This document shows positions 2,150 to 47,770 of a DNA stretch of 64,000 nt, in pieces. Positions within the stretch are counted from its first letter, which is position 1. Every line of letters starts with the position of its first letter. Below the pieces are notes generated by a model. It worked only from the letters and a program-made list of their open reading frames with translations, made no database searches and was not told the origin of the DNA. Position numbers and translations under genes: made by a program. This stretch comes from Candidatus Saccharimonadota bacterium. GTDB taxonomy: Bacteria > Patescibacteriota > Saccharimonadia > Saccharimonadales > Saccharimonadaceae. Location of the stretch: assembly GCA_017514905.1 (NCBI GenBank), contig JAFWIK010000002.1, forward strand, positions 1 through 64,000. The letters are read 5' to 3'.

Positions 2150-3088
2150 TTATTTCCTAGTTTTCTTGTCGTGTTTAATGATATAAATCGTGCCGCCTAT
2201 GCCAACAATCGCGAAGATCATTAATCCAGTAGTCAAATAATCAGACTTCGAGATATTTAGGCTACCCAGCAAACCACCGGTATCAGGCGTCTTAGTATCG
2301 TCACCGCCAGTACCAGGCACAGGTATTGTCTTGTAATAATATACATAGCTTATCTTTTTATAAAGCGAATTACCGTGCCTATCAAATGCTTCGATTTCAA
2401 CCGTATATTTTCCAGAAGGTAGTCCTAGTTCATCAAATGGTATCTTTACTTCTTTGGTTGGAGCCTGTACGATAATTGGAGATATTTCGATTGGGTTACC
2501 TTTTTCGTCAAGGATAGTAATCTTTATTTCCTTAACCTTGCCATCATCCTCTGGTCCACCCTCATCTGGATCGTAATCCAAATCGACTATTGGATCACCA
2601 GTGTCGCCATCTTCAGTGATACTTGCTTCTACCGGCACAAACGAAAACTTCAAAGTTGTCGTATCGCTTACACCACCTACACCAGTACCTTTTACCGTCA
2701 AAACGTAATCCCCATAGTCATAATCGCCTTCCAAAAAATCAAACGAGAACGTTCTACTTCCTGCCTCATAATCCAGGTCTTCGTTTAATAGGGGAACACT
2801 ATGTTTGTTGCCATCTTTGTCCGTAAATGTCAACGTCGCTTCAATATGATTGAGATTCTCATAATTAATCGTCACATCATGTTTTGGTGTCGTGACCACT
2901 TCGTCTGTTTTTAAATCGCTCACAATATCAACATTTGGCTTGTCGCCTACTACGCGGATCTGTACCGTATCGGTGACGCTACCTGTTGCCATTGCTTCTG
3001 GTCCCGGCAAAAATGCCGCAAAAACCGTGATTGCTGCTACCAAAAGGAGCCCAAGCAATCCTAAAATTTTCTTTTTTGTTTTTTCCAT
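2150..3088 (-). CDS. Exported surface protein with PDTG motif and C-terminal membrane anchor
   Basis: I do not recognise a specific family. The start chosen is the ATG at 3088 (MEKTKKKILG), because the frame upstream begins only with GTG. The 312-residue product has a lysine-rich start, a signal segment at residues 8-30 (ILGLLGLLLVAAITVFAAFL), then a long acidic region that looks like two or three beta-sandwich repeats. Near the end comes PVPGTGG...TPDTGG, followed by one membrane helix and KHDKKTRK. This resembles a sortase-type sorting tail, but the motif is not LPXTG. It is downstream of, and probably co-transcribed with, the gene at 3153-4178. Confidence 0.7.
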   Translation of the reverse strand: MEKTKKKILGLLGLLLVAAITVFAAFLPGPEAMATGSVTDTVQIRVVGDKPNVDIVSDLKTDEVVTTPKHDVTINYENLNHIEATLTFTDKDGNKHSVPLLNEDLDYEAGSRTFSFDFLEGDYDYGDYVLTVKGTGVGGVSDTTTLKFSFVPVEASITEDGDTGDPIVDLDYDPDEGGPEDDGKVKEIKITILDEKGNPIEISPIIVQAPTKEVKIPFDELGLPSGKYTVEIEAFDRHGNSLYKKISYVYYYKTIPVPGTGGDDTKTPDTGGLLGSLNISKSDYLTTGLMIFAIVGIGGTIYIIKHDKKTRK

Positions 3089-3152
3089 ACTCTGCACTCT
3101 CTTTTATTTTTTATATTTTTGTTTTGGTTTTGTAAGGAATACCGCTAAATGG

Positions 3153-16892: not shown

Positions 16893-17098
16893 TAAACAAC
16901 AGAAAATACGGGTGGTTGGACCTGATATTTTTGTAGCGTAACAGTGATTTGAAATTTTAACACGTATATTCCTGACGCAACCGAGAAAGTTGCCCGTTAG
17001 GGCAACCTTCCCCGGCTTGCCAGTGTATGACGTGCTTATAATTTCAAGTCCAGCTACAAAAAACAGGTCCAACCAGGACCCGTTTTTCGCTGTTTTAT
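16893..17098. repeat. Palindromic element, family A (intergenic copy at the rpsG 3' end)
   Basis: Locus-specific outer arms (left centred on GGTTGGACCTGATATTTTTG, 16914-16933; right its complement near 17055-17080) enclose the family A core. The core runs from GTAGCGTAACAG through CACGTATATTCCTGACG and CCAGTGTATGACGTGCTT to AAGTCCAGCTAC. On the minus strand the core is open in the same frame as the mnmA and tatD copies (AGLEIISTSYTGKPGK). It occupies most of the gap between gap and rpsG; no other gene is seen at 16761-17094. Confidence 0.85.
17059..17080 (-). terminator. Terminator of the rpsL-rpsG operon
   Basis: On the minus strand GGTCC (17080-17076) and GGACC (17070-17066) form a stem with loop TGGTT, followed by TGTTTTTT. 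It lies 15 bp past the rpsG stop and forms the right outer arm of the family A palindrome. Confidence 0.7.
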
Positions 17099-23582: not shown

Positions 23583-24026
23583 TTAAGCTTCTTTTCTAGC
23601 TAAGGCTCTTGAAGAAAGATAAGTTACTAAAAGTCCTGCCATTAAAGCAATCGGCAAAGTATCTTCCGGGCCAGTAGTTGGCATTGGTGCATCGGTTTGC
23701 ACTGCGGCGCTAGCATCGGTGCTATTTGATTTTTCTGACTTTTTACTATTGTCAGTACCTTTGACTGTTGGCTTGTCACTGTCCGAACTAGTGTCAGTAG
23801 TTTTGTTGTTAGTTTTATCTTCGGTTTTTTGATCATCTTGACCAGAATCCTTGTTGTCATCAACTACTGCTGTAGTTTGGCTTTCGCTAGTCCCCGGCTT
23901 CCCAGTCTTTTTCGTAGCGACTACGATAATAGCTGCAACTAAAATCAAGATAATTGCAACTGCTACAGTAGCTACTGCGATAATCTTGCGGCGTTCCTTC
24001 TTTTCCGCCTCTTCTTGCATATACAT
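23583..24026 (-). CDS. Small membrane protein with PTTG sorting-like C-terminus
   Basis: The 147-residue product has a cytoplasmic start rich in glutamate and lysine, a membrane helix (about residues 16-37) and a low-complexity serine, threonine and aspartate linker. The tail is MPTTGPEDTLPIALMAGLLVTYLSSRALARKEA, a motif-helix-basic arrangement like a sortase signal but with PTTG. Two membrane segments flank a disordered outer loop. No enzyme motif is visible. An AAGGAG site precedes the ATG. Compare PDTGG at 2150-3088 and PNTG at 46043-47770. Confidence 0.6.
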   Translation of the reverse strand: MYMQEEAEKKERRKIIAVATVAVAIILILVAAIIVVATKKTGKPGTSESQTTAVVDDNKDSGQDDQKTEDKTNNKTTDTSSDSDKPTVKGTDNSKKSEKSNSTDASAAVQTDAPMPTTGPEDTLPIALMAGLLVTYLSSRALARKEA

Positions 24027-26644: not shown

Positions 26645-27388
26645 CTACTCTGCCTTGCCGCTATGCTCTTCGCGCCATTTATCGACTTCACCGTGATTGC
26701 CAGAGAGTAGCACTTCTGGCACTTTCATGCCGCGAAAATCTTCGGGCCGCGTATACTGCGGATACTCCAAATTATCGCCGTCCGAAAAAGATTCAATTTC
26801 GGCGGAAGTTTCTCCACCTAGCACGCCCGGAATTAATCTTACGATCGAGTCGATGATGATGAGTGCCGGCAGTTCTCCACCGGTGAGGACGTATTTGCCC
26901 AGCGAAATCTTGTAATCTACAATCGACAAAATCCTTTCGTCGTACCCCTCGTAATGCGGACAAAGAATTATGTAATGAGGGTTTGCATCCGAATTCGGGG
27001 GATTCCGGAGCGCGGCAGCGCGAGGATTAGCGCGCTCGCCCCGTGGCGACGGGCGCGAGCGACGCGACCCCGAATTGGATGCAAAGCCTCTTGCTAATTC
27101 TTGGCTCCAGATTTCGCCTACGGGGGTAGGCAAAATCACTTTGGCGTCTGGGTCTTTGGCTTTCACTGACTCGATGGCAGCAAAAACAGGCTCACAGCGA
27201 AGCAACATGCCGTCACCCCCACCATACGGAGTATCATCCACAGATTTATGAGGCCCCAAGCCAAAATCACGTAAATTCACAAAATCAAACTCCGCCAGGC
27301 CTTTTTCGGTCGCTTTCCACATCATTGAAGTCTTAAGATATGGCTCCAAAGCCTCTTTAAAGAGTGTAATTATTGTGAATTTTATCAT
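26645..27388 (-). CDS. trmD: tRNA (guanine37-N1)-methyltransferase with inserted palindromic element
   Basis: TrmD makes m1G37 next to the anticodon, preventing frameshifts. The 247-residue product starts KFTIITLFKEALEPYL and carries DDTPYGGGDGMLLR, the SPOUT knot segment HYEGYDERILSIVDYKISLGKYVLTGGELPALIIIDSIVRLIPGVLG, and PQYTRPEDFRGMKVPEVLLSGNHGEVDKWR. Between QELARGFA and NPHYIILCPHYEG lies an extra segment of about 30 residues encoded by the palindrome at 26977-27090, which remains in frame. The insertion sits just before the AdoMet-binding knot. A TATAAT-like box ends 7 nt before the ATG (leaderless). Confidence 0.95.
   Translation of the reverse strand: MIKFTIITLFKEALEPYLKTSMMWKATEKGLAEFDFVNLRDFGLGPHKSVDDTPYGGGDGMLLRCEPVFAAIESVKAKDPDAKVILPTPVGEIWSQELARGFASNSGSRRSRPSPRGERANPRAAALRNPPNSDANPHYIILCPHYEGYDERILSIVDYKISLGKYVLTGGELPALIIIDSIVRLIPGVLGGETSAEIESFSDGDNLEYPQYTRPEDFRGMKVPEVLLSGNHGEVDKWREEHSGKAE
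26977..27090. repeat. Intragenic palindromic element, family B (trmD copy)
   Basis: GAGGGTTTGCATCCGAATTC at 26977 pairs with an arm ending GATGCAAAGCCTC at 27090. Bases 26991-27075 are identical, in reverse complement, to 42281-42365 in iscS. The 114 bp equal 38 codons and are translated as SNSGSRRSRPSPRGERANPR and onward. Confidence 0.95.
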
Positions 27389-27627: not shown

Positions 27628-29127
27628 ATGTTTGTTGATAAAGCTAAAGTGAGTTTGAAAGCCGGTAAAGGCGGTAATGGTGCCGTTTCTTTTCGCCGCG
27701 AAATCTATATTCCAAAGGGTGGACCTGACGGCGGCGATGGCGGCAAAGGTGGCGATATTGTTTTTCTTGCCGACAAAGACACTAATAGCTTAGTCGATTT
27801 TCGTTTCACGCCGATTCTCGAAGCCGCGAACGGTAAAAATGGTTCGGGCCAACGCTCCGCTGGCCGCTCTGGCGAGGACCTCATCGTCAAGGTGCCCGTC
27901 GGCACCAGCGTCTACAGATTAGAACACGACGGATATCCTCGCGTTCTAGTGGCGGACCTAGTGCAGAATGGTCAAAAGGTGATTATCGCCCATGGTGGCG
28001 ATGGCGGTTTTGGCAATGCTCACTTCAAGAGTTCCACTCGCCAAGCTCCTCTAATTGCAGAAGTCGGCGAACCCGGCGAAGAATTTGAAGCGGAACTCGA
28101 ACTTAAATCCATGGCTGATGTTGGTCTGGTTGGTCTACCAAACGCTGGTAAATCTACTTTTCTGTCCGTTGTCTCAAATGCTAAGCCCGAAATTGCTGAC
28201 TATCCATTCACCACGCTTACCCCACATATTGGGGTAGCGACCGTAGATGGTAAAGATCTGCTAATTGCTGATATCCCCGGACTGATAGAAGGGGCTGCTG
28301 AAGGTAAAGGCTTGGGTCATGACTTTTTACGCCATGTAGATCGTACCTCAGTTTTATTGCATCTCATCGATATCTATAATAATGATACCGGTGAAGCATA
28401 CCAAACTATTAGAAATGAGCTAGAAAAGTACTCTGACTTAGCTTCGCGTCCTGAAATCATTGCCCTCACTAAGTGTGAAGGTGTCGGCGAAGATATCATT
28501 AAAATGCAGATGGCTTCCATCCTCAAAAAGAACCCAAACGCCAAAATCTTCGCGATTTCTAGCCAAGCCCATCAAGGCATCACTGAGCTACTCAGGGAAC
28601 TCGCGGCGGGGGTGGCTGAATGCCATTTTTCTGGACCGGATGTAGAGTCCTCGACGTCATACATTGGAAACAAAGAACGAGCGACAAAAGATGGTTTTGT
28701 GAGCATTCGCGACAACGGGAGCGAACTAGCGAGCGAGCCCCGTAACGACCGTCGCAGGAGCCGAGGAGACGAAAAGCTCGCTTTTCGTCTTGAGGCGACG
28801 CCCAACGGACGACCCTCGGTCGACGGGAGCGAGCGAAGCGGCGAACAAAATCATCTTTTGAGCGAAGTTCCTACGATTTCACTCAAAAATGACCAACTGA
28901 AGGATACTTGGCAAGTCAAACAGGATGGCGACAAATTTATCGTAACCGGCGAAAAAATTGAGAAGTTCGCCCGCCGTACGGATCTCGATAACTATGCCAG
29001 CCTCAATCGTCTCCGTGATATCATGAAAAAAATGGGTATTCATGCTGAGTTAACGTCTCGGGGCGCCAAACCTGAGTCCATCATTGAAGTTGCTGGCAAA
29101 GATTTTACTTTGGTCGAAGACTGGTAG
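27628..29127 (+). CDS. obgE: GTPase ObgE/CgtA with inserted palindromic element
   Basis: Obg is a ribosome-associated GTPase for 50S maturation and stress control. The start chosen is the ATG at 27628 (MFVDKAKVSLKAG); TATAAT at 27616-27621 makes it leaderless. The 499-residue product has the glycine-rich Obg fold (GGPDGGDGGKGGDIVFLAD...), the G domain (GLPNAGKSTFLS, DIPGLIEGAAEGKGLG, ALTKCEG) and the C-terminal OCT domain (LRDIMKKMGIHAEL...GAKPESIIEVAGKDF). The linker between the G and OCT domains, about residues 350-415, is enlarged by the element at 28675-28870, which reads through in frame. Confidence 0.96.
   Translation: MFVDKAKVSLKAGKGGNGAVSFRREIYIPKGGPDGGDGGKGGDIVFLADKDTNSLVDFRFTPILEAANGKNGSGQRSAGRSGEDLIVKVPVGTSVYRLEHDGYPRVLVADLVQNGQKVIIAHGGDGGFGNAHFKSSTRQAPLIAEVGEPGEEFEAELELKSMADVGLVGLPNAGKSTFLSVVSNAKPEIADYPFTTLTPHIGVATVDGKDLLIADIPGLIEGAAEGKGLGHDFLRHVDRTSVLLHLIDIYNNDTGEAYQTIRNELEKYSDLASRPEIIALTKCEGVGEDIIKMQMASILKKNPNAKIFAISSQAHQGITELLRELAAGVAECHFSGPDVESSTSYIGNKERATKDGFVSIRDNGSELASEPRNDRRRSRGDEKLAFRLEATPNGRPSVDGSERSGEQNHLLSEVPTISLKNDQLKDTWQVKQDGDKFIVTGEKIEKFARRTDLDNYASLNRLRDIMKKMGIHAELTSRGAKPESIIEVAGKDFTLVEDW
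28675..28870. repeat. Intragenic palindromic element, family D (obgE copy)
   Basis: The left arm GAACGAGCGACAAAAGATGG (28675) matches the complement of the right arm ending ATCTTTTGAGCGAAGTTC (28870). The core starts TTCGCGACAACGGGAGCGA, shared exactly with the second mnmA element, and has an internal hairpin GACGAAAAGC/GCTTTTCGTC near 28768-28790. It encodes about 65 extra residues of ObgE. Confidence 0.85.
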
Positions 29128-35667: not shown

Positions 35668-36424
35668 GTTTTTAGCCGAACGCTTAGGAGTTTCGCGACG
35701 CGAGGCAGATGATTTGATTGCCGCGGGTAAAGTCACGATTAATGATGACAAAGCGATTTTGGGCGCAAAAATTGACAAAAATGATAAAGTATGCTATAAT
35801 AAAAAGATAGTTCCGTTTCAAGCGGATTTTTCTTATCTTGCGTTTAATAAGCCCATCGGTTACGTCTGTTCACGTCGTGCTCAAGGGTCCACACCAACAC
35901 TATATAATCTTTTGCCTATCAAATACCAAAAGCTCAAAACTGTTGGTCGCCTAGACAAAGATACTTCCGGCCTGATTCTACTTACAAACGATGGTGATTT
36001 TGCTTTTCAAATGACGCACCCAAAATTCCACAAAGAAAAGGTTTATGAGGTGGAGCTAAACAAGCCTCTAGAGCCCCTACACCAGCAAATGGTTTCCGAT
36101 TACGGCGTCATGTTAGATGACGGACCAAGTAAATTTACCGTCATAAAAGACGATTCTATCCCCTCTAATCAAGGGGAGTTCCAGGATGTAACAACGCGAG
36201 AATTAACGCGCGAGTCTCGTAGCGATGGATACGAAAGGTGCAACTCTGCAGACAAGATAACACAAAATCGTTACATTGTAACTTTATCCGAGGGTCGTAA
36301 TCGCCAGATTAGACGAACGTTTGCTGCGCTTGGCTACCGAGTCATCAAGCTTCACCGCACACAATTTGGCAAATATCAACTTAATACTCTAGCTCCAGGC
36401 GAATTTACAGAATTCAAAATTTAA
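35639..36424 (+). CDS. rRNA pseudouridine synthase (RsuA/RluB family) with inserted segment
   Basis: The 261-residue product has an N-terminal S4 RNA-binding domain (IRLNKFLAERLGVSRREADDLIAAGKVTIN). The catalytic domain carries the aspartate in GRLDKDTSGLILLTNDGD. The C-terminal EGRNRQIRRTFAALGY is a family hallmark. Between VIKDDSI and YIVTLSEGRNRQ lie about 35 extra residues (GEFQDVTTRELTRESRSDGY and following). These match the peptide encoded by the iscS element in frame, so they are a degenerate family B insertion. It converts a 23S (or 16S) uridine to pseudouridine. The start lies inside the regulator gene. Confidence 0.92.
   Translation: MDNQKIRLNKFLAERLGVSRREADDLIAAGKVTINDDKAILGAKIDKNDKVCYNKKIVPFQADFSYLAFNKPIGYVCSRRAQGSTPTLYNLLPIKYQKLKTVGRLDKDTSGLILLTNDGDFAFQMTHPKFHKEKVYEVELNKPLEPLHQQMVSDYGVMLDDGPSKFTVIKDDSIPSNQGEFQDVTTRELTRESRSDGYERCNSADKITQNRYIVTLSEGRNRQIRRTFAALGYRVIKLHRTQFGKYQLNTLAPGEFTEFKI
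36177..36245. repeat. Degenerate palindromic element, family B (rRNA pseudouridine synthase copy)
   Basis: ACGCGAGAATTAACGCGCGA at 36193-36212 matches the trmD core segment GCGCGAGGATTAGCGCGC with few changes, and CGTAGCGATGGATACGAAAG follows in the order of CGTGGCGACGGGCGCGAGCG. The outer arms are eroded. It is translated in the same frame and sense as the iscS copy. Confidence 0.6.
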
Positions 36425-37709: not shown

Positions 37710-39761
37710 TTATTCCAGCACAGCTTTAATTCGGCGCACTCCAGCCGAGGAAGATTCTTCTTTTTTAATTCTGAAGTGACCAAGAACCCCAGTATGCTCC
37801 ACGTGTGGCCCACCACAAACTTCGCGTGAAATTGGTTTTTCAAAATCACCGATTGTATAGACTCTGAGTTTTTCGGGATATTTATCCCAGAACTGGCCAT
37901 GCGCCTTCAGGGTATTTCGCGCATAAGCTTTGTCATATTCATCAAATACTACTGGAAGATCCGCTTTAATCCACTCATTCACTTGATCCTCGACAGCTTT
38001 TTTCTCTTCGTCAGTCATTTTGTGGTCCAAATTAAAGTCGAACCTTAATCTCTCTGCCGTAGTATTAGAACCGCGCTGCATTATGTCTGGCGAAACTAAT
38101 TTCTGAAGCGCCGCAAGTAGTAGGTGTGTTGCTGTATGGTACTTCACGGTCTGTTCACCATGGTCCTCAAGCCCACCCTTAAACATGCCCTTCGACGCGG
38201 TTTGCGACCTTTCACGCTGTTCTTTTAAAGCTGTCTCAAATTCTTCACGGTAATTTTTTGTCAGTTTAATCCCTTCACGGTAGCATTCCTCCACCGAAAG
38301 TTCCATTGGAAAACCATAAGTATCCTGTAACTTAAATAAATCCCGGCCAGACAAGATGGCACTTTCGTCTCGACTCGGGGCATTTCGGAGCGCGGCAGCG
38401 CGAGAATTAGCGCCGGCCGCCCGTGGCGGACTGCCGGAGGAGTCGAGTGAAGAACGAGCTGGCTCGTTCTTCCGAGACGACGACGAGCAGACGACTTTAG
38501 TCGACGGGCCGGCCGGACGCGGCCCCGAGTGAGATGAAAGCGCCATCTTCTTTAACTCGCGTAATCCTTTATTTAAGGTTTGTCGAAAGGTCTTTTCCTC
38601 GTGAAGCATTATCTCGAGCGCTTTTTCGCGCTGGGTCAAGATTGAATCTGGTAAATCTGCATAAATGTCTGCTACTACTGGGACGATTTCTGCTAGGAAG
38701 TTTGTGGCAATCCCGAGGTCTAGCGCCCGTAAAATCGCTCTACGTAAGAGTCTGCGCATGGCATAACCCTGTGTTTTGTTTGATGGGACGAGCCCCTGAG
38801 CTGCTAGTAGGTATGCGCCACGAATATGGTCAGCAATCACCCGCATTTCATCGGTGTTATTATCATAAGATTTGCCTGAAATTTTCCCAAGTTTATCAAT
38901 AATAGGTTTCATTAATGAAATCTTAAACACGTCAAACGAGCCAATCGCCGCTGCAGAAATCCGCTCCAAACCGCCACCAAAGTCCACATTTTTTTGCTCT
39001 AATTCGGCAAAAGTCCCATCCTCAAGTCGTCGATATTGCATAAACACCGAGTTGCCAATTTCCATAAATCTCGCTCCATCTGAAGCCGGATGTGCTTGGC
39101 CGAAGCGTGATACATCTTGTTTATCTTCGCCAAAATCATAAAATACTTCCGAATCCGGCCCACACGGGTCACCGATCGGAGTGTCTTCGAGCCCGCCACC
39201 CCGACTCCACCAGTTTTCGTGGTCATCATAAAAGAAAATACGCTCCCCTGGCTTAACACCGCGCTTATCGCCTTCGTCTGCCGAACCAATTTCAGCAATT
39301 TTAGCCTCAATTCCGGCGTTTTTGAATACTCTCTGCCAAATTTCTGCAGTATCGTTGTCTTTTGGAATGCCATATTTTTCGTTTCCGATAAAACAAGTCA
39401 CATACAGCTTATTCGGATCTAGCCCTACAACTTTGGTCAAAAATTCAAAAAAGCTCTCAATCTGTTCTTCCTTAAAATAATCACCGAGCGACCAATTTCC
39501 TAGCATTTCAAACACAGTAGTATGCCTCGGATCGCCTACGTCGTCGATGTCTTGCATTCTAAGAGAAGGTTGCACGTCGGTCAATCTTTTGCCTTCCGGA
39601 TGCTTTTTGCCTAAAAGATACGGCAAAAGTGGCTGCATTCCTGAACTAGTAAAAAGCGTAGTCGGATCACCCTCTAGAACTAGTGGTGCCGGCTGGATTA
39701 CTTTGTGCCCTCTTTTTTCTTGAAACTCTAAAAATTTTTTTCTAATTTCATTTGCATCCAT
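37710..39761 (-). CDS. alaS: Alanyl-tRNA synthetase, C-terminally short, with inserted palindromic element
   Basis: AlaRS charges tRNA-Ala. The start is the ATG at 39761 (MDANEIRKKFLEF); a TATAAT box ends 7 nt upstream and the longer frame to 39971 is not supported. The 683-residue product has the class II catalytic core (FTSSGMQPLLPYLLG, GDPRHTTVFEMLGNWSLGDYF, FGGGLERISA), the tRNA-recognition domain, and the editing domain (HTATHLLLAALQKL, with EVCGGPHVEHTG). It ends after HFRIKKEESSSAGVRRIKAVLE, so the DHHA1/C-Ala region is missing; most AlaRS proteins have about 870 residues. A 193-bp palindrome at 38355-38547 adds about 64 residues between core and editing domains. Confidence 0.96.
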   Translation of the reverse strand: MDANEIRKKFLEFQEKRGHKVIQPAPLVLEGDPTTLFTSSGMQPLLPYLLGKKHPEGKRLTDVQPSLRMQDIDDVGDPRHTTVFEMLGNWSLGDYFKEEQIESFFEFLTKVVGLDPNKLYVTCFIGNEKYGIPKDNDTAEIWQRVFKNAGIEAKIAEIGSADEGDKRGVKPGERIFFYDDHENWWSRGGGLEDTPIGDPCGPDSEVFYDFGEDKQDVSRFGQAHPASDGARFMEIGNSVFMQYRRLEDGTFAELEQKNVDFGGGLERISAAAIGSFDVFKISLMKPIIDKLGKISGKSYDNNTDEMRVIADHIRGAYLLAAQGLVPSNKTQGYAMRRLLRRAILRALDLGIATNFLAEIVPVVADIYADLPDSILTQREKALEIMLHEEKTFRQTLNKGLRELKKMALSSHSGPRPAGPSTKVVCSSSSRKNEPARSSLDSSGSPPRAAGANSRAAALRNAPSRDESAILSGRDLFKLQDTYGFPMELSVEECYREGIKLTKNYREEFETALKEQRERSQTASKGMFKGGLEDHGEQTVKYHTATHLLLAALQKLVSPDIMQRGSNTTAERLRFDFNLDHKMTDEEKKAVEDQVNEWIKADLPVVFDEYDKAYARNTLKAHGQFWDKYPEKLRVYTIGDFEKPISREVCGGPHVEHTGVLGHFRIKKEESSSAGVRRIKAVLE
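38355..38547. repeat. Intragenic palindromic element, family B (alaS copy)
   Basis: GATGGCACTTTCGTCTCGAC (38355) pairs with the arm ending GAGATGAAAGCGCCATC (38547). The core CATTTCGGAGCGCGGCAGCG then CGAGAATTAGCGCC matches trmD. It is extended by a nested hairpin GAAGAACGAGC/GCTCGTTCTTC (38449-38472) that the other copies lack. The peptide SRAAALRNAPSRD parallels PRAAALRNPPNSD in TrmD. Confidence 0.9.
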
Positions 39762-40109: not shown

Positions 40110-41388
40110 ATTCTGCAATTATTCCACCGCCTAGACAAATTTCGCCATCATATAGTACGGCAGACTGCCCCGCCGCCGGACGCTTGACTTCACTTTCAAA
40201 ATGTAAGGTTTTTCCATCAAAAGTCGCTGGAACTAGTGGTGCCCGGTGCCTCAGGCGAACAGAAACCTGTTTTTTCTGAAGCGTAAAATGATTTGAAAAA
40301 TCTGAAACGTATATTCCAGACGACGCCGAGAGGTTCGTCTGCGTAGCAGACGGTTCTCCCGGCCGTCCTGTGTATGACGTTTCTGATTTTTTAAGTCCAG
40401 CTTCAGAAAAAACAGGTTCTGTTCGCATGATGACATTCTTCAAGATTAGTTCCTTGGTCCAGATCGCCTCATGATTCAGATTCCTTGACACGTAAATAAT
40501 GTTCTTTTTAATGTCTTTTTTGACGACATAATATGGCAAACCTTCATTCACTACACCTTTTTCGCCTTCGAGATATAACCCATGTCGCTGTCCGATTGTA
40601 TAAAACACTGCTCCTTCGTGATAACCTAGTACTTTGTCAGTTTCAATTTCGCGAATTTCGCCCGGTTCAATTTCAATATACTCCTTAAGAAAATCTTTCA
40701 TTCCCACTTCGCCCACAAAACAAACTCCCATCGATTCCTTTTTGTACGCGTTGTGTAGGCCCTTTTCCTTGGCTAATTTCTTAACATCAGGCTTTAGCAT
40801 CTCGCCGATCGGAAAGATTGTATGCGCCAAAGCCTCGTCCGAAATCCGATACAAAAAATATGTCTGGTCTTTATTCTCATCTACGGCTCTTGCAAGAGCT
40901 ATAGCCGTTTCGAGTCCGTTCGCGACAACGGGAGCGATCGACGAAGCGAGCCCTGTAACGACAGGAGCGAGCGAGGAGGGACGAGAAATGGCCATAGCTC
41001 TTGCATAATGCCCTGTGGCGATAAAGTCAGCTCCAGTCGCCATGGCTTTTTCGTAAAACAATTTGAACTTAATCTCTTGGTTGCACATGATGTCGGGGTT
41101 CGGCGTATTGCCTTTTTTGAATTCTTCCAGCATATAATCCACCACTTTTTGCCGATATTCTTCTTCAAAATCCCAGACTTCAAACGGAATTCCAAGCTTT
41201 ACTGCCACGCGCTTAGCATCTGCTAAGTCCTCCGCCCAAGGGCATTTCATACCGGGCAGATCTCTTGACCAGTTTTTCATGTAAATACCGACCACGTCAT
41301 AACCTTGTTCCTTCAAAAGTAAGGCCGACACGCTTGAATCTACTCCGCCGCTCATTCCAACATAAACTTTTTTTCTTTGAGTTTTCAT
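40108..41388 (-). CDS. mnmA: tRNA-specific 2-thiouridylase MnmA with two inserted palindromic elements
   Basis: MnmA thiolates U34 of tRNAs for Lys, Glu and Gln. The 426-residue product (usual length about 360) has the PP-loop GMSGGVDSSVSALLL, the first catalytic cysteine in NPDIMCNQEIKF, ATGHYAR, DENKDQTYFLY, the second cysteine in SMGVCFVGE and the GQRHGL block. Two in-frame insertions account for the extra length. One follows GHYARAMAI (element 40891-41005). The other sits between MRTEPVF and SVRLRHRAP in the C-terminal beta-barrel (element 40257-40424). Both catalytic cysteines remain. It overlaps iscS, its sulfur donor, by 4 bp. Confidence 0.95.
   Translation of the reverse strand: MKTQRKKVYVGMSGGVDSSVSALLLKEQGYDVVGIYMKNWSRDLPGMKCPWAEDLADAKRVAVKLGIPFEVWDFEEEYRQKVVDYMLEEFKKGNTPNPDIMCNQEIKFKLFYEKAMATGADFIATGHYARAMAISRPSSLAPVVTGLASSIAPVVANGLETAIALARAVDENKDQTYFLYRISDEALAHTIFPIGEMLKPDVKKLAKEKGLHNAYKKESMGVCFVGEVGMKDFLKEYIEIEPGEIREIETDKVLGYHEGAVFYTIGQRHGLYLEGEKGVVNEGLPYYVVKKDIKKNIIYVSRNLNHEAIWTKELILKNVIMRTEPVFSEAGLKKSETSYTGRPGEPSATQTNLSASSGIYVSDFSNHFTLQKKQVSVRLRHRAPLVPATFDGKTLHFESEVKRPAAGQSAVLYDGEICLGGGIIAE
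40257..40424. repeat. Intragenic palindromic element, family A (first mnmA copy)
   Basis: GAACAGAAACCTGTTTTTTC at 40257 pairs with AAAACAGGTTCTGTTC ending at 40424. The core has GAAACGTATATTCCAGACG, CGAGAGGTTCGTC, GGTTCTCCCGG and TGTATGACGTTTC, shared with the tatD and intergenic copies. It is translated in frame as GLKKSETSYTGRPGEPSATQ and following. Confidence 0.92.
40891..41005. repeat. Intragenic palindromic element, family D (second mnmA copy)
   Basis: TGCAAGAGCTATAGCCGTTT (40891) pairs with AATGGCCATAGCTCTTGCA ending at 41005. The core TTCGCGACAACGGGAGCGA and GCGAGCCCTGTAACGAC is shared with the obgE element. Confidence 0.88.
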
Positions 41389-43068: not shown

Positions 43069-43956
43069 TTAAAGCTTAAATAGCGCTTCAGTGTTTGCCG
43101 TGGTAACTTTTTCGACGGTAGAAAAGTCAGAGTCAAGCGTCTCAGCCAGCCAGTTCGCGATATCTAGGATATGACTAGGTTCGTTCGTTTGGTTACGGAA
43201 TCCTTTCGGCGCTAGAAATGGCGCATCAGTCTCTAGCATGATTCTCTCAAGTGGTGGCATCGGCAAAGTCGAATAGGTCGCTAAGCCGTTTACGCCAATA
43301 TAAAAATCAGTTTCATTTAGAATCCGCTTTAATACTTTTTTACTACCAGTAAAAGAATGTACCACACCGCGAGCTTTAGGAAAATTTGCCACCACAGCAA
43401 AGAAGTCCGGAAAAGCTCCGCGTACGTGAAATGACAGTGGCAGATCATTGTCTTTCGCGAGCTGCAACATCTGCTCGAACAGCCTAATCTGCGCCGCCCG
43501 ATCGTATCCTTCATCATGGTAATCCAGCCCGACTTCACCAATCGCGACGGGCAAGATTGGTTTTTGCCCTTTCTGAAGCGTAAAGATTTGATTTGAATTT
43601 TTAACACGTCTATTCCTGCACCGAAGGTCCGACCTCTGGTCGACGCACCCGAGAGGTTCGTCCCGTAGGGACGGTTCTCCCGGCGTGCCAGCGTATGACG
43701 TGCTTAAAAATTCAAGTCCAGCTGAAGAAAAGGCAAAACCAGTCTTGCCCGTCTCGGATGGATGTATGCCATAGGTCCAGTACACATAATCATGCTTCGA
43801 CGCAAATTCTGCTGCCGCCAGAGAATCCTCGTGCGACGTGCCAATACAGACGATTTTTTTTACGCCGAACTTTTCTGCGCGTTTCAGACAGTCTTCCGCT
43901 TGTTTTGCAGTATAAAACTCCTTATCGTGTAGATGGCAGTGCGAATCAATTAACAC
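43069..43956 (-). CDS. tatD: TatD family metal-dependent DNase with inserted palindromic element
   Basis: TatD enzymes are 3'-5' DNases of the amidohydrolase fold. The 295-residue product has the metal ligands in LIDSHCHLHDKEF, the histidine in YGIHPSE, the glutamate in AIGEVGLDYHDEG, the histidine in LSFHVRGAF and LETDAPFLAP. Between GIHPSETGKTGFAF and LPVAIGEVG lie about 50 unusual residues from the element at 43546-43753, in place of the short helix usual at this site. All catalytic positions remain. The gene starts within the last bases of typA, so it is co-transcribed with it. Confidence 0.93.
   Translation of the reverse strand: MLIDSHCHLHDKEFYTAKQAEDCLKRAEKFGVKKIVCIGTSHEDSLAAAEFASKHDYVYWTYGIHPSETGKTGFAFSSAGLEFLSTSYAGTPGEPSLRDEPLGCVDQRSDLRCRNRRVKNSNQIFTLQKGQKPILPVAIGEVGLDYHDEGYDRAAQIRLFEQMLQLAKDNDLPLSFHVRGAFPDFFAVVANFPKARGVVHSFTGSKKVLKRILNETDFYIGVNGLATYSTLPMPPLERIMLETDAPFLAPKGFRNQTNEPSHILDIANWLAETLDSDFSTVEKVTTANTEALFKL
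43546..43753. repeat. Intragenic palindromic element, family A (tatD copy)
   Basis: GACGGGCAAGATTGGTTTTT (43546) pairs with the arm ending AACCAGTCTTGCCCGTC (43753). The core CACGTCTATTCCTGCACCGA, CGAGAGGTTCGTCCC, GGTTCTCCCGGCGTGCCAGC and GTATGACGTGCTT matches the rpsG-side and mnmA copies. The peptide AGLEFLSTSYAGTPGEPS is in the same frame as in MnmA. Confidence 0.92.
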
Positions 43957-45852: not shown

Positions 45853-46056
45853 ATGACTAATCGAAGCAAACACCTAGATCCAAACCGAGTCTATGAGCCC
45901 AAACGTTGCTGGGTAGGTGATACCCATAAGATTATTTATGATACTTTAGAAGAGGCCGAGCTAGCTGCAAAAGTGGCCGAATATGATCATCATTCTGGCC
46001 AGCTCAAGGCCTACAAATGCCCTTACGCCGACCATTATCATCTTAGTTCAAATTAG
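45853..46056 (+). CDS. Small conserved-looking protein with His/Cys-rich end
   Basis: The 67-residue product reads NRSKHLDPNRVYEPKRCWVGDTHKII, then EEAELAAKVAEYDHH and ends YKCPYADHYHLSSN. The closing C-P-x-x-x-H-x-H pattern, with an earlier cysteine, could bind zinc; such short proteins with CPYCxxxH-type ends occur near mobile and phage genes as well. A CATAAT box 6 nt before the ATG fits the leaderless pattern. Its last 14 bp overlap the convergent gene at 46043. Confidence 0.6.
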   Translation: MTNRSKHLDPNRVYEPKRCWVGDTHKIIYDTLEEAELAAKVAEYDHHSGQLKAYKCPYADHYHLSSN

Positions 46057-47770
46057 CCTTTCCGGTGTTGGGTGCTTTTGGCACAAAGAAATTGTCAGAA
46101 TCAGCACTAGCGTTTTTCCTTTGTTTGCTTATTTCTATTGTCACCGCCTCACCCCGCGAGTCCGCATTGAGTGGCACCAACGTCAAAACATTCTCCCGAG
46201 AGAGGTTTAATCCACCAACCGTGATTTCTGTCTCATCTATAATACCTAGTATTTTATCATTTAGGGCCACTACTGTCTGCGCGCCGGTGTTAGAAAACTT
46301 CACATTTATACTGTCACTATTTAACATTTTTTCGTTGATAGTTAGAACTGGCAGAGTGCTTGAAGCAGTCTCTTCTACGCGCGGCAGCGAATCGTAACGC
46401 TCCATAATATAATCCGTGAGTAGGTTCAGCTCGTCAAAATTAGTGACAACTTTACCATCAGTCTGTCGTGCCAGCTCTGTATAATTATCTCCATAAGACG
46501 CATTGGTAATAATATAGAAATTCACAGGATCAATCTTTTTGCTGAGTTTTACCACTTCATCAAAAGTCATTCCGTCGCGGTCCGGTGCCAAAAAATTCGC
46601 ATCTGTCAAAACCACCAAGGATTTAGTCGAACCGCGTTTCCATTTGAGACTATTCATCACATGAAAAGATGCTGAAAGCAGAGATTCTGGTGTGTCGCCG
46701 CCACCATTAACTTGGATAGCGTCGAGTTCGCTCGAAAAATTCTCAATCGTACAGGTTTCAAAATTGCAGTGTTGCACCGGCGTATACGGATCGTTTAGAT
46801 CGCGGTAATCGTATAGTGCCACACGCCCACCAGCAGCGAAAGTCTCCTTTGCTAACCTTAAAGCCTCGGTTTTATACTCATCAATCATACTTGACATTGA
46901 ACCAGTCGAATCAATCAAGATTGCCGTGTCGTGTGGTGAAGAAATATGATTTTTTAGCCCAAACGCTTTGGTGATTTTATCAAAGATTACGCGCGAAGCA
47001 TCTTCATAAAGGTTTTCACTAATGTACGCTAGATGGTCGCTCATATTAAAATGCGAACTGCAAAAAATGTCGCGTTTGTTACACCAAGTGCCGACCTTGC
47101 CCACCAAGTTTTCTGGCTCGTATGGTATATAGGCGCCGAGCAGACCTTTATATGCTTGGCAATCCGGTACATACATCCGGTAATCTGATAAATTCTTACC
47201 ACTACATGCGGCTGGCATTAGGCCTTTCCCTTCTGGTAAATATAGTTTTGGATCACCGAAAGTAGCGGCGTAGATGATCCGATCGCTTTTTAGTCTTTTT
47301 AATGCTTTTGACACTACCATTGCACCTTGCGAATAGCCACCAATCACATATTTAGTTTGCGGACAACTAGCCCCATTCACTAGTTTAGTTAAATTGCTTA
47401 CGCCAGTATTCACACTATCGCCAAATTCATAAGCTTCGCCTGCGCCAACCCAGGCCCCGAGTGTGACGCCAATTTTATCGAGGCCAATGCCCACGGCTGG
47501 GTAATCTAGATCGATGAACTCATATTTTAGTTTTACGGTTTCGAGTTTAGTCTGGATTGTCTTTTTAAATTCCAAGTAGTTTTTGTCTTTCCATCTTTCT
47601 CCGCCCGAGCCACGCGCAAACACCACACGTAGATCTGGGCAGCTGCTAGCTTGCACCGGAATCCGTGGCATGCTTATGCTAAAAAGAAGCATAGACACGA
47701 TTACAAAAAAGCGGATTTTGATGTGACTTTTTCGCCCACCCAATTTTTTAATTGGGATTTTTCCTCGCAT
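46043..47770 (-). CDS. Secreted cutinase-like esterase with VWA domain
   Basis: The 575-residue product has a signal segment (about 18-42) and then a cutinase-family alpha/beta hydrolase. It shows CPDLRVVFARGSGGE, the nucleophile elbow GGYSQGAMVVSKAL and the late C-x4-D-x2-C and H-x2-Y arrangement (WCNKRDIFC...DHLAYIS). A VWA domain follows (about 285-450) with the MIDAS-type start AILIDSTGSMSS and VVLTDANF. A beta domain of about 95 residues comes next, and the protein ends FFVPKAPNTGKANLN with a PNTG motif but no membrane helix after it. Cutinases hydrolyse lipid esters and are common in Actinobacteria, the usual hosts of Saccharibacteria. The activity on host lipids is inference. Confidence 0.85.
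   Translation of the reverse strand: MRGKIPIKKLGGRKSHIKIRFFVIVSMLLFSISMPRIPVQASSCPDLRVVFARGSGGERWKDKNYLEFKKTIQTKLETVKLKYEFIDLDYPAVGIGLDKIGVTLGAWVGAGEAYEFGDSVNTGVSNLTKLVNGASCPQTKYVIGGYSQGAMVVSKALKRLKSDRIIYAATFGDPKLYLPEGKGLMPAACSGKNLSDYRMYVPDCQAYKGLLGAYIPYEPENLVGKVGTWCNKRDIFCSSHFNMSDHLAYISENLYEDASRVIFDKITKAFGLKNHISSPHDTAILIDSTGSMSSMIDEYKTEALRLAKETFAAGGRVALYDYRDLNDPYTPVQHCNFETCTIENFSSELDAIQVNGGGDTPESLLSASFHVMNSLKWKRGSTKSLVVLTDANFLAPDRDGMTFDEVVKLSKKIDPVNFYIITNASYGDNYTELARQTDGKVVTNFDELNLLTDYIMERYDSLPRVEETASSTLPVLTINEKMLNSDSINVKFSNTGAQTVVALNDKILGIIDETEITVGGLNLSRENVLTLVPLNADSRGEAVTIEISKQRKNASADSDNFFVPKAPNTGKANLN

Follow-up and report, generated by a model that had tools for sequence, protein, structure and literature searches.

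A predicted secreted cutinase–VWA protein of gut Saccharibacteria ends in a conserved sortase-type motif without a membrane helix

The window analysed here, a stretch of 64,000 nucleotides that is part of a 700-kb genome, encodes a 575-aa protein in which a cutinase-like esterase is joined to a von Willebrand A (VWA) domain and whose C-terminus carries a motif of the sortase type. The conservation of this tail among relatives, and its recurrence in unrelated proteins, lead us to infer strongly that it is probably a functional sortase-type signal. The wider proposal, that of an exported esterase with its own binding domain held by a sortase at the bacterial surface through a helix-less signal, we regard as evenly balanced. 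Its esterase part taken alone, an ester hydrolase of the cutinase/acetylxylan-esterase clan, is very probable, judging from conserved residues and the predicted fold. The enzyme and adhesion domains belong to known families, and their fusion is also found outside the Saccharibacteria. No relevant report on cutinase–VWA proteins or on sortase signals in Saccharibacteria was found in the open-licence literature and, as far as that literature shows, a recurrent and strictly conserved helix-less sortase signal has not been described.

The gene lies at 46043..47770 on the minus strand, with an ATG start and a TAA stop at 46043-46045. Residues 1-41 (47648..47770, minus strand) form a predicted Sec-type signal peptide with the hydrophobic core FFVIVSMLLFSISM, likely cleaved after VQA according to the sequence, and residues 17-32 are helical in the predicted model. 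The cutinase-like alpha/beta hydrolase domain follows at residues 43-270 (46961..47644, minus strand), where Pfam Cutinase PF01083 matches residues 43-260 (E 7.7e-19; 68.7 bits against a cut-off of 25.9). The VWA or integrin beta-I-like domain spans residues 276-461 (46388..46945, minus strand) and is matched above cut-off by VWA_4, PF25106, over residues 284-426 (E 3.5e-11). A C-terminal beta-sandwich domain at residues 470-548 (46127..46363, minus strand), delimited by beta strands at 476-547 in the AlphaFold2 model, is without a Pfam match. The terminal motif PKAPNTG occupies residues 564-570 (46061..46081, minus strand) and is followed only by KANLN, so that the protein ends in ...PKAPNTGKANLN and then the stop, with no membrane helix. 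A convergent open reading frame of about 67 aa at 45853-46057 on the plus strand overlaps the 3′ end of the gene, and in several relatives tblastn finds counterparts of the region at this position.

Conservation within the family agrees with these assignments. The catalytic serine and histidine, whose conservation the first-pass annotation had singled out as decisive, are unchanged in all 59 aligned sequences, together with the catalytic aspartate: Ser147 in GGYSQG (47330..47332), Asp234 between Cys230 and Cys237 (47069..47071), and His246 in DHLAY (47033..47035), all on the minus strand. Six cysteines (44, 136, 189, 204, 230, and 237) are equally invariant (59/59). In the VWA domain, the metal site D287-x-T289-x-S291, E362, and D390 (within 46388..46945, minus strand) is kept at D287 in 58/59, T/S289 in 58/59, S291 in 59/59, E362 in 56/59, and D390 in 57/59 rows, and the acidic residue E362 agrees with a metal site of the integrin-beta/hemicentin kind. 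The same annotation had proposed a secreted cutinase–VWA protein, and this description holds: both Pfam families are recognised, the triad is invariant, the metal site is intact, and the N-terminal signal sequence and invariant cysteines support a predicted export.

The AlphaFold2 model, built on 55 sequences, has a mean pLDDT of 84.3. When this predicted model was compared with known structures by VIA-align, residues 43-268 matched cutinase-like enzymes, acetylxylan esterases, and the mycobacterial Rv3802c/MSMEG_6394 with Z scores of 19.6-21.4; the matches at Z 20.6-21.4 covered 184-200 residues with an rmsd of 2.4-2.9. Residues 276-461 matched integrin beta I domains with a Z of about 21 (21.1 for the integrin beta3 I domain). 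The active site and the metal site are in this way established by conservation and by the predicted fold, and the VWA domain would bind its ligand in a metal-dependent manner.

The first-pass annotation had also pointed to an end in PNTG without a membrane helix. This end is genuine and typical of the genus: of about 60 distinct relatives, 49 reach their stop 2-7 residues past [IVL]PK[AT]P[ND]TG, or past a motif close to it, with no helix in frame. The residues after the motif are commonly RR, KR, or RK, with R or K coming next in over half of the 59 rows; the window copy, with KANLN, is without this commonest ending. Within the motif, P567 is conserved in 58/59, T569 in 53/59, and G570 in 56/59 sequences, while the linker before it varies so much in length and sequence that it cannot be aligned. 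Every codon of the motif differs at synonymous sites among the 49 relatives, which indicates that selection acts on the peptide. An artefact of assembly or conservation at the DNA level was ruled out, the motif being present in scores of genomes and spelled with every synonymous codon. A helix hidden by a frameshift was likewise ruled out: a weak hydrophobic stretch lies downstream in only 3/49 relatives and none was found in the other 46/49. Distant relatives carry a classic signal, for example L060, which ends with LPSTG, a helix, and KRKRR.

From the missing helix, the first-pass annotation had concluded that the protein could be released. The absence of the helix stands, but the conclusion is probably incomplete, since a motif that is under purifying selection and homologous to sortase signals indicates capture at the surface rather than plain release. 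In its simple form, release would mean that the helix was lost, that the enzyme is diffusible, and that the motif no longer serves a sortase and persists by chance or in a structural role. The lack of an in-frame helix in the cutinase–VWA tail fits this reading, as does the established knowledge that classic sorting requires one. Strong conservation of the motif behind an unalignable linker, despite synonymous drift in each codon, speaks against it, as does the occurrence of the same motif in unrelated helix-less proteins. The tail is moreover disordered in the AlphaFold2 model (pLDDT of about 35), which makes a structural role unlikely. We therefore consider simple release quite unlikely, although the motif may be a relic that some other role, for instance the binding of a partner, has preserved.

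Those unrelated proteins came from a pattern scan of 147 genomes of the genus, in which PK[AT]P[ND]TG was found 88 times and the pattern in reverse about 5 times; this difference ruled out a chance motif. The cutinase–VWA copies were without a helix in 58/59 cases. In 14 of the other carriers, the protein continues for more than 20 residues past the motif, nearly always as a helix and a charged tail; 9 more are short, of which one (L177) is cut by the contig end. Examples of the helix-less kind are a Lipase_3 hydrolase (PF01764, 1.7e-7), a CHAP-like protein, and several exported proteins of no family. Beyond the genus, most helix-less matches to the pattern are short frames or classic helix-bearing signals. 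A preference for Asn in helix-less and Asp in helix-bearing motifs (Fisher p 8e-5) is only suggestive, the rows being related and the helix-bearing set having been picked by pattern.

In the Lipase_3 family, 20 members carry a motif followed by a helix and a K/R tail, whereas 12 stop at the same position after PKxPNTG or a near variant. The form PKxP[ND]TG is present in 11/12 helix-less ends against 0/20 helix ends (Fisher p 9e-8, uncorrected for relatedness). By parsimony, the tree implies about 5-6 switches between the two states, the count of about 6 including a masked row (L297) that is to be disregarded, and at least 2 switches are forced on well supported branches. The tail is thus modular. 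The window genome has a Lipase_3 protein of its own (L308, G000:C8:2862-4430), which is helix-bearing and has the motif KVPDSG in repeated form. A 914-aa frame, L218 (G251:C16), has an internal PKVPNTG directly followed by a Lipase_3 protein that ends in PKVPNTGRR, and appears to be two helix-less proteins fused together.

The same family bears on whether the tag is read by something other than a sortase, be it an extracellular partner, a receptor on the epibiont surface, or a factor of export or quality control that recognises a C-terminal PKxPNTG[RK]x. The stricter and longer motif of the helix-less Lipase_3 form (PKxP[ND]TG), compared with the helix form, agrees with such a reader, and so does the placement of the motif at a free C-terminus, within 2-8 residues. 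However, in Lipase_3 relatives a true sortase signal can stand in its place, and the TG core of the motif is exactly the scissile bond of sortases, which leaves a non-sortase reader improbable in our estimate.

The window's genome encodes two sortases, one of 406 aa that is class C-like and one of 234 aa that is class F-like, named after the nearest subfamily model with both below cut-off. Sortase genes were found in 58/58 genomes of the genus tested; with sortases in all genomes searched, their presence cannot be correlated with the helix-less tail. Classic signals end other proteins in the window, namely TPDTG at 2150-3097 and MPTTG at 23583-24026. Classic sorting relies on the membrane helix and charged tail to hold the precursor back, and a precursor without a helix would normally be lost to the medium. 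In the absence of this helix, fixing by a sortase could take place after release, from the outside. The chemistry has a direct precedent: in living S. aureus, endogenous SrtA incorporated added peptides of LPXTG with a cationic cluster and no hydrophobic domain about 20-fold more readily than the motif alone (PMC4723074).

The events that we propose would begin with Sec export of the cutinase–VWA protein and cleavage of its signal peptide, followed by folding with three disulfides. The soluble protein would then expose its C-terminal PKAPNTG-x-x, and a sortase, by which the helix-less end is presumably processed, would cut between Thr and Gly and join the protein to an acceptor in the cell wall or on the surface. 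The VWA domain would bind a ligand on a neighbouring cell or in the matrix, where the esterase would cleave acyl esters and supply fatty acids to a cell that is not self-sufficient. The nature of the acceptor (the cell's own wall or that of a neighbour), of the VWA ligand, and of the lipid substrate is conjecture. A more radical version is trans-sorting, in which hydrolases leave the cell in soluble form and are fixed covalently from outside by a sortase, possibly that of the host actinobacterium, resulting in a decorated host wall; we consider it a long shot.

Two readings of the substrate are compatible with the sortase-type tail. One, put forward by the first-pass annotation, is a host-directed esterase of mycolates or other lipids, with the VWA domain binding the actinobacterial host while the enzyme strips lipids from its envelope. 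The resemblance of the fold to Rv3802c and MSMEG_6394, a weak similarity to phage LysB, and the cross-phylum homologue in Arthrobacter favour it, and Saccharibacteria are epibionts that parasitise Actinobacteria, mycolata included (PMC12592800). Fungal acetylxylan esterases and cutinase-like enzymes, however, match the fold equally well or better: these esterases, the plastic-degrading cutinase-like enzymes, and the mycobacterial lipase all score alike, so the fold singles out no substrate. Arthrobacter is also not known to produce mycolates, which counts against this reading. The window protein scored 16.3 bits against the Culp6 equivalog NF050160, for which the cut-off is 570, and its relation to LysB and other actinobacterial cutinases is at the level of the superfamily only (parts of the domain are about 22-44% identical); viral contigs gave weak cutinase matches only. 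A host-lipid esterase is thus a tentative reading, on the doubtful side.

The other is de-esterification of cutin or acetylated hemicellulose in the ruminant gut, with the VWA domain binding feed particles. Most close relatives were recovered from compartments of the ruminant gut, and acetylxylan esterases and plastic-degrading cutinase-like enzymes are among the best structural matches. On the other hand, the family is also present in other families of the Saccharimonadia and on an Arthrobacter plasmid, and degradation of plant polymers is rare in small epibiont genomes, so that action on plant polymers is, on the whole, unlikely.

The Arthrobacter homologue (L265) is the best match in a plasmid collection, an 838-aa frame at about 311-314 kb of plasmid NZ_CP104273.1 from Arthrobacter sp. 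zg-Y1110 of marmot gut. It consists of cutinase, VWA, PKD-type repeats, LASTG, a helix, and RRRR. Its cutinase half is unannotated on NZ_CP104273.1, where the CDS on record begins further downstream, under the name PKD domain protein. L265 is 49.6% identical to the Saccharimonadaceae protein L064, clearly above every other relative, and the two form a pair, supported at 100/100 in the full tree, at 100/99 once the long outgroups are removed, and at 86/62 in a reduced set that includes distant outgroups. In the AU test, holding L265 with both outgroups gave a p of 0.046, and holding it with the Rhodococcus protein alone gave 0.23. A plasmid-borne fusion at about 50% identity to L064 indicates exchange with Actinobacteria, and gene exchange between them and Saccharibacteria, in either direction, is likely judging by the sequences. 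Together with the known epibiont life of Saccharibacteria on Actinobacteria (PMC12592800), this homologue lends indirect support to the actinobacterial link that the first-pass annotation had suggested.

Relatives of the window protein, at 40-74% identity, were found in 44 contigs, nearly all from Candidatus Saccharibacteria and mostly from the gut of sheep, goat, buffalo, yak, and cattle. In the Saccharimonadaceae, 51/199 genomes have a match, including nearly every sampled genome of the same genus. Most loci retain the same neighbouring genes (dCMP deaminase, uracil-DNA glycosylase, TypA, and TatD), and the locus is therefore one that the genus has inherited; in this ruminant-gut genus, the fusion is old and mostly syntenic. 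A chance open reading frame was ruled out by the same contigs and genomes, with their mostly shared neighbourhood. In the phylum as a whole, matches to the Cutinase profile are rare (7/287 genomes).

The window also contains interspersed repeats (26995-27048, 28694-28766, 36171-36224, 38375-38428, 40349-40410, 40907-40979, 43642-43731, and 16974-17063). Copies lie in frame inside TrmD, Obg, an RsuA-like protein, AlaRS, MnmA, and TatD, with one copy intergenic, and add R/S/P/A-rich peptides to these housekeeping proteins, an arrangement that we take to be reminiscent of the Rickettsia palindromic elements. Moreover, the repeat pairs 12861-12959/62995-63093 and 542-601/62934-62993 are 87-92% identical and lie about 50 and 62 kb apart.

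On the question of how Saccharibacteria attach to their hosts and feed, an esterase with its own integrin-like binder offers a conserved and expressible candidate. Textbooks require a membrane helix of a sortase signal; a conserved motif that does without one, recurs on exported enzymes unrelated to each other, and alternates with classic signals in the Lipase_3 family runs counter to this rule, and hints at an unusual route for fixing enzymes to the bacterial surface. The Arthrobacter homologue in turn suggests that genes have passed between Saccharibacteria and the phylum to which their hosts belong.

When compared with known systems, the protein has the fold of the Cutinase/CE5 enzymes (PF01083; 7cc4, 1bs9, and 5w95, the last being Rv3802c) at a Z of about 21, and shares their GYSQG nucleophile elbow, the Asp between two cysteines, the HxxY histidine motif, and the disulfide cysteines; it differs in being fused to VWA and beta-sandwich domains and is only 17-25% identical. 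LysB of mycobacteriophages and Gordonia phages, which acts on the host envelope at lysis, belongs to the same superfamily (best E 2e-6, 29% identity) but has neither a VWA domain nor a sortase motif. The VWA domain shares the fold (Z 21) and the DxTxS...E...D metal site of integrin beta I and hemicentin-type domains (VWA_4, PF25106), but is bacterial and joined to an esterase. The Arthrobacter protein is likewise a fusion of cutinase and VWA and covers 74% of the window protein at 33% identity, but ends with its PKD-type repeats and a classic signal. The tail itself shares the P-x-T-G core of the LPXTG signal, and helix-bearing relatives in the same genus have the same motif; it differs from the classic signal in lacking the hydrophobic helix, in ending 2-8 residues past the motif, and in its stricter PKxP[ND]TG. 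Like the peptides offered to S. aureus SrtA (PMC4723074), the natural tail of the genus is a motif with a short basic end.
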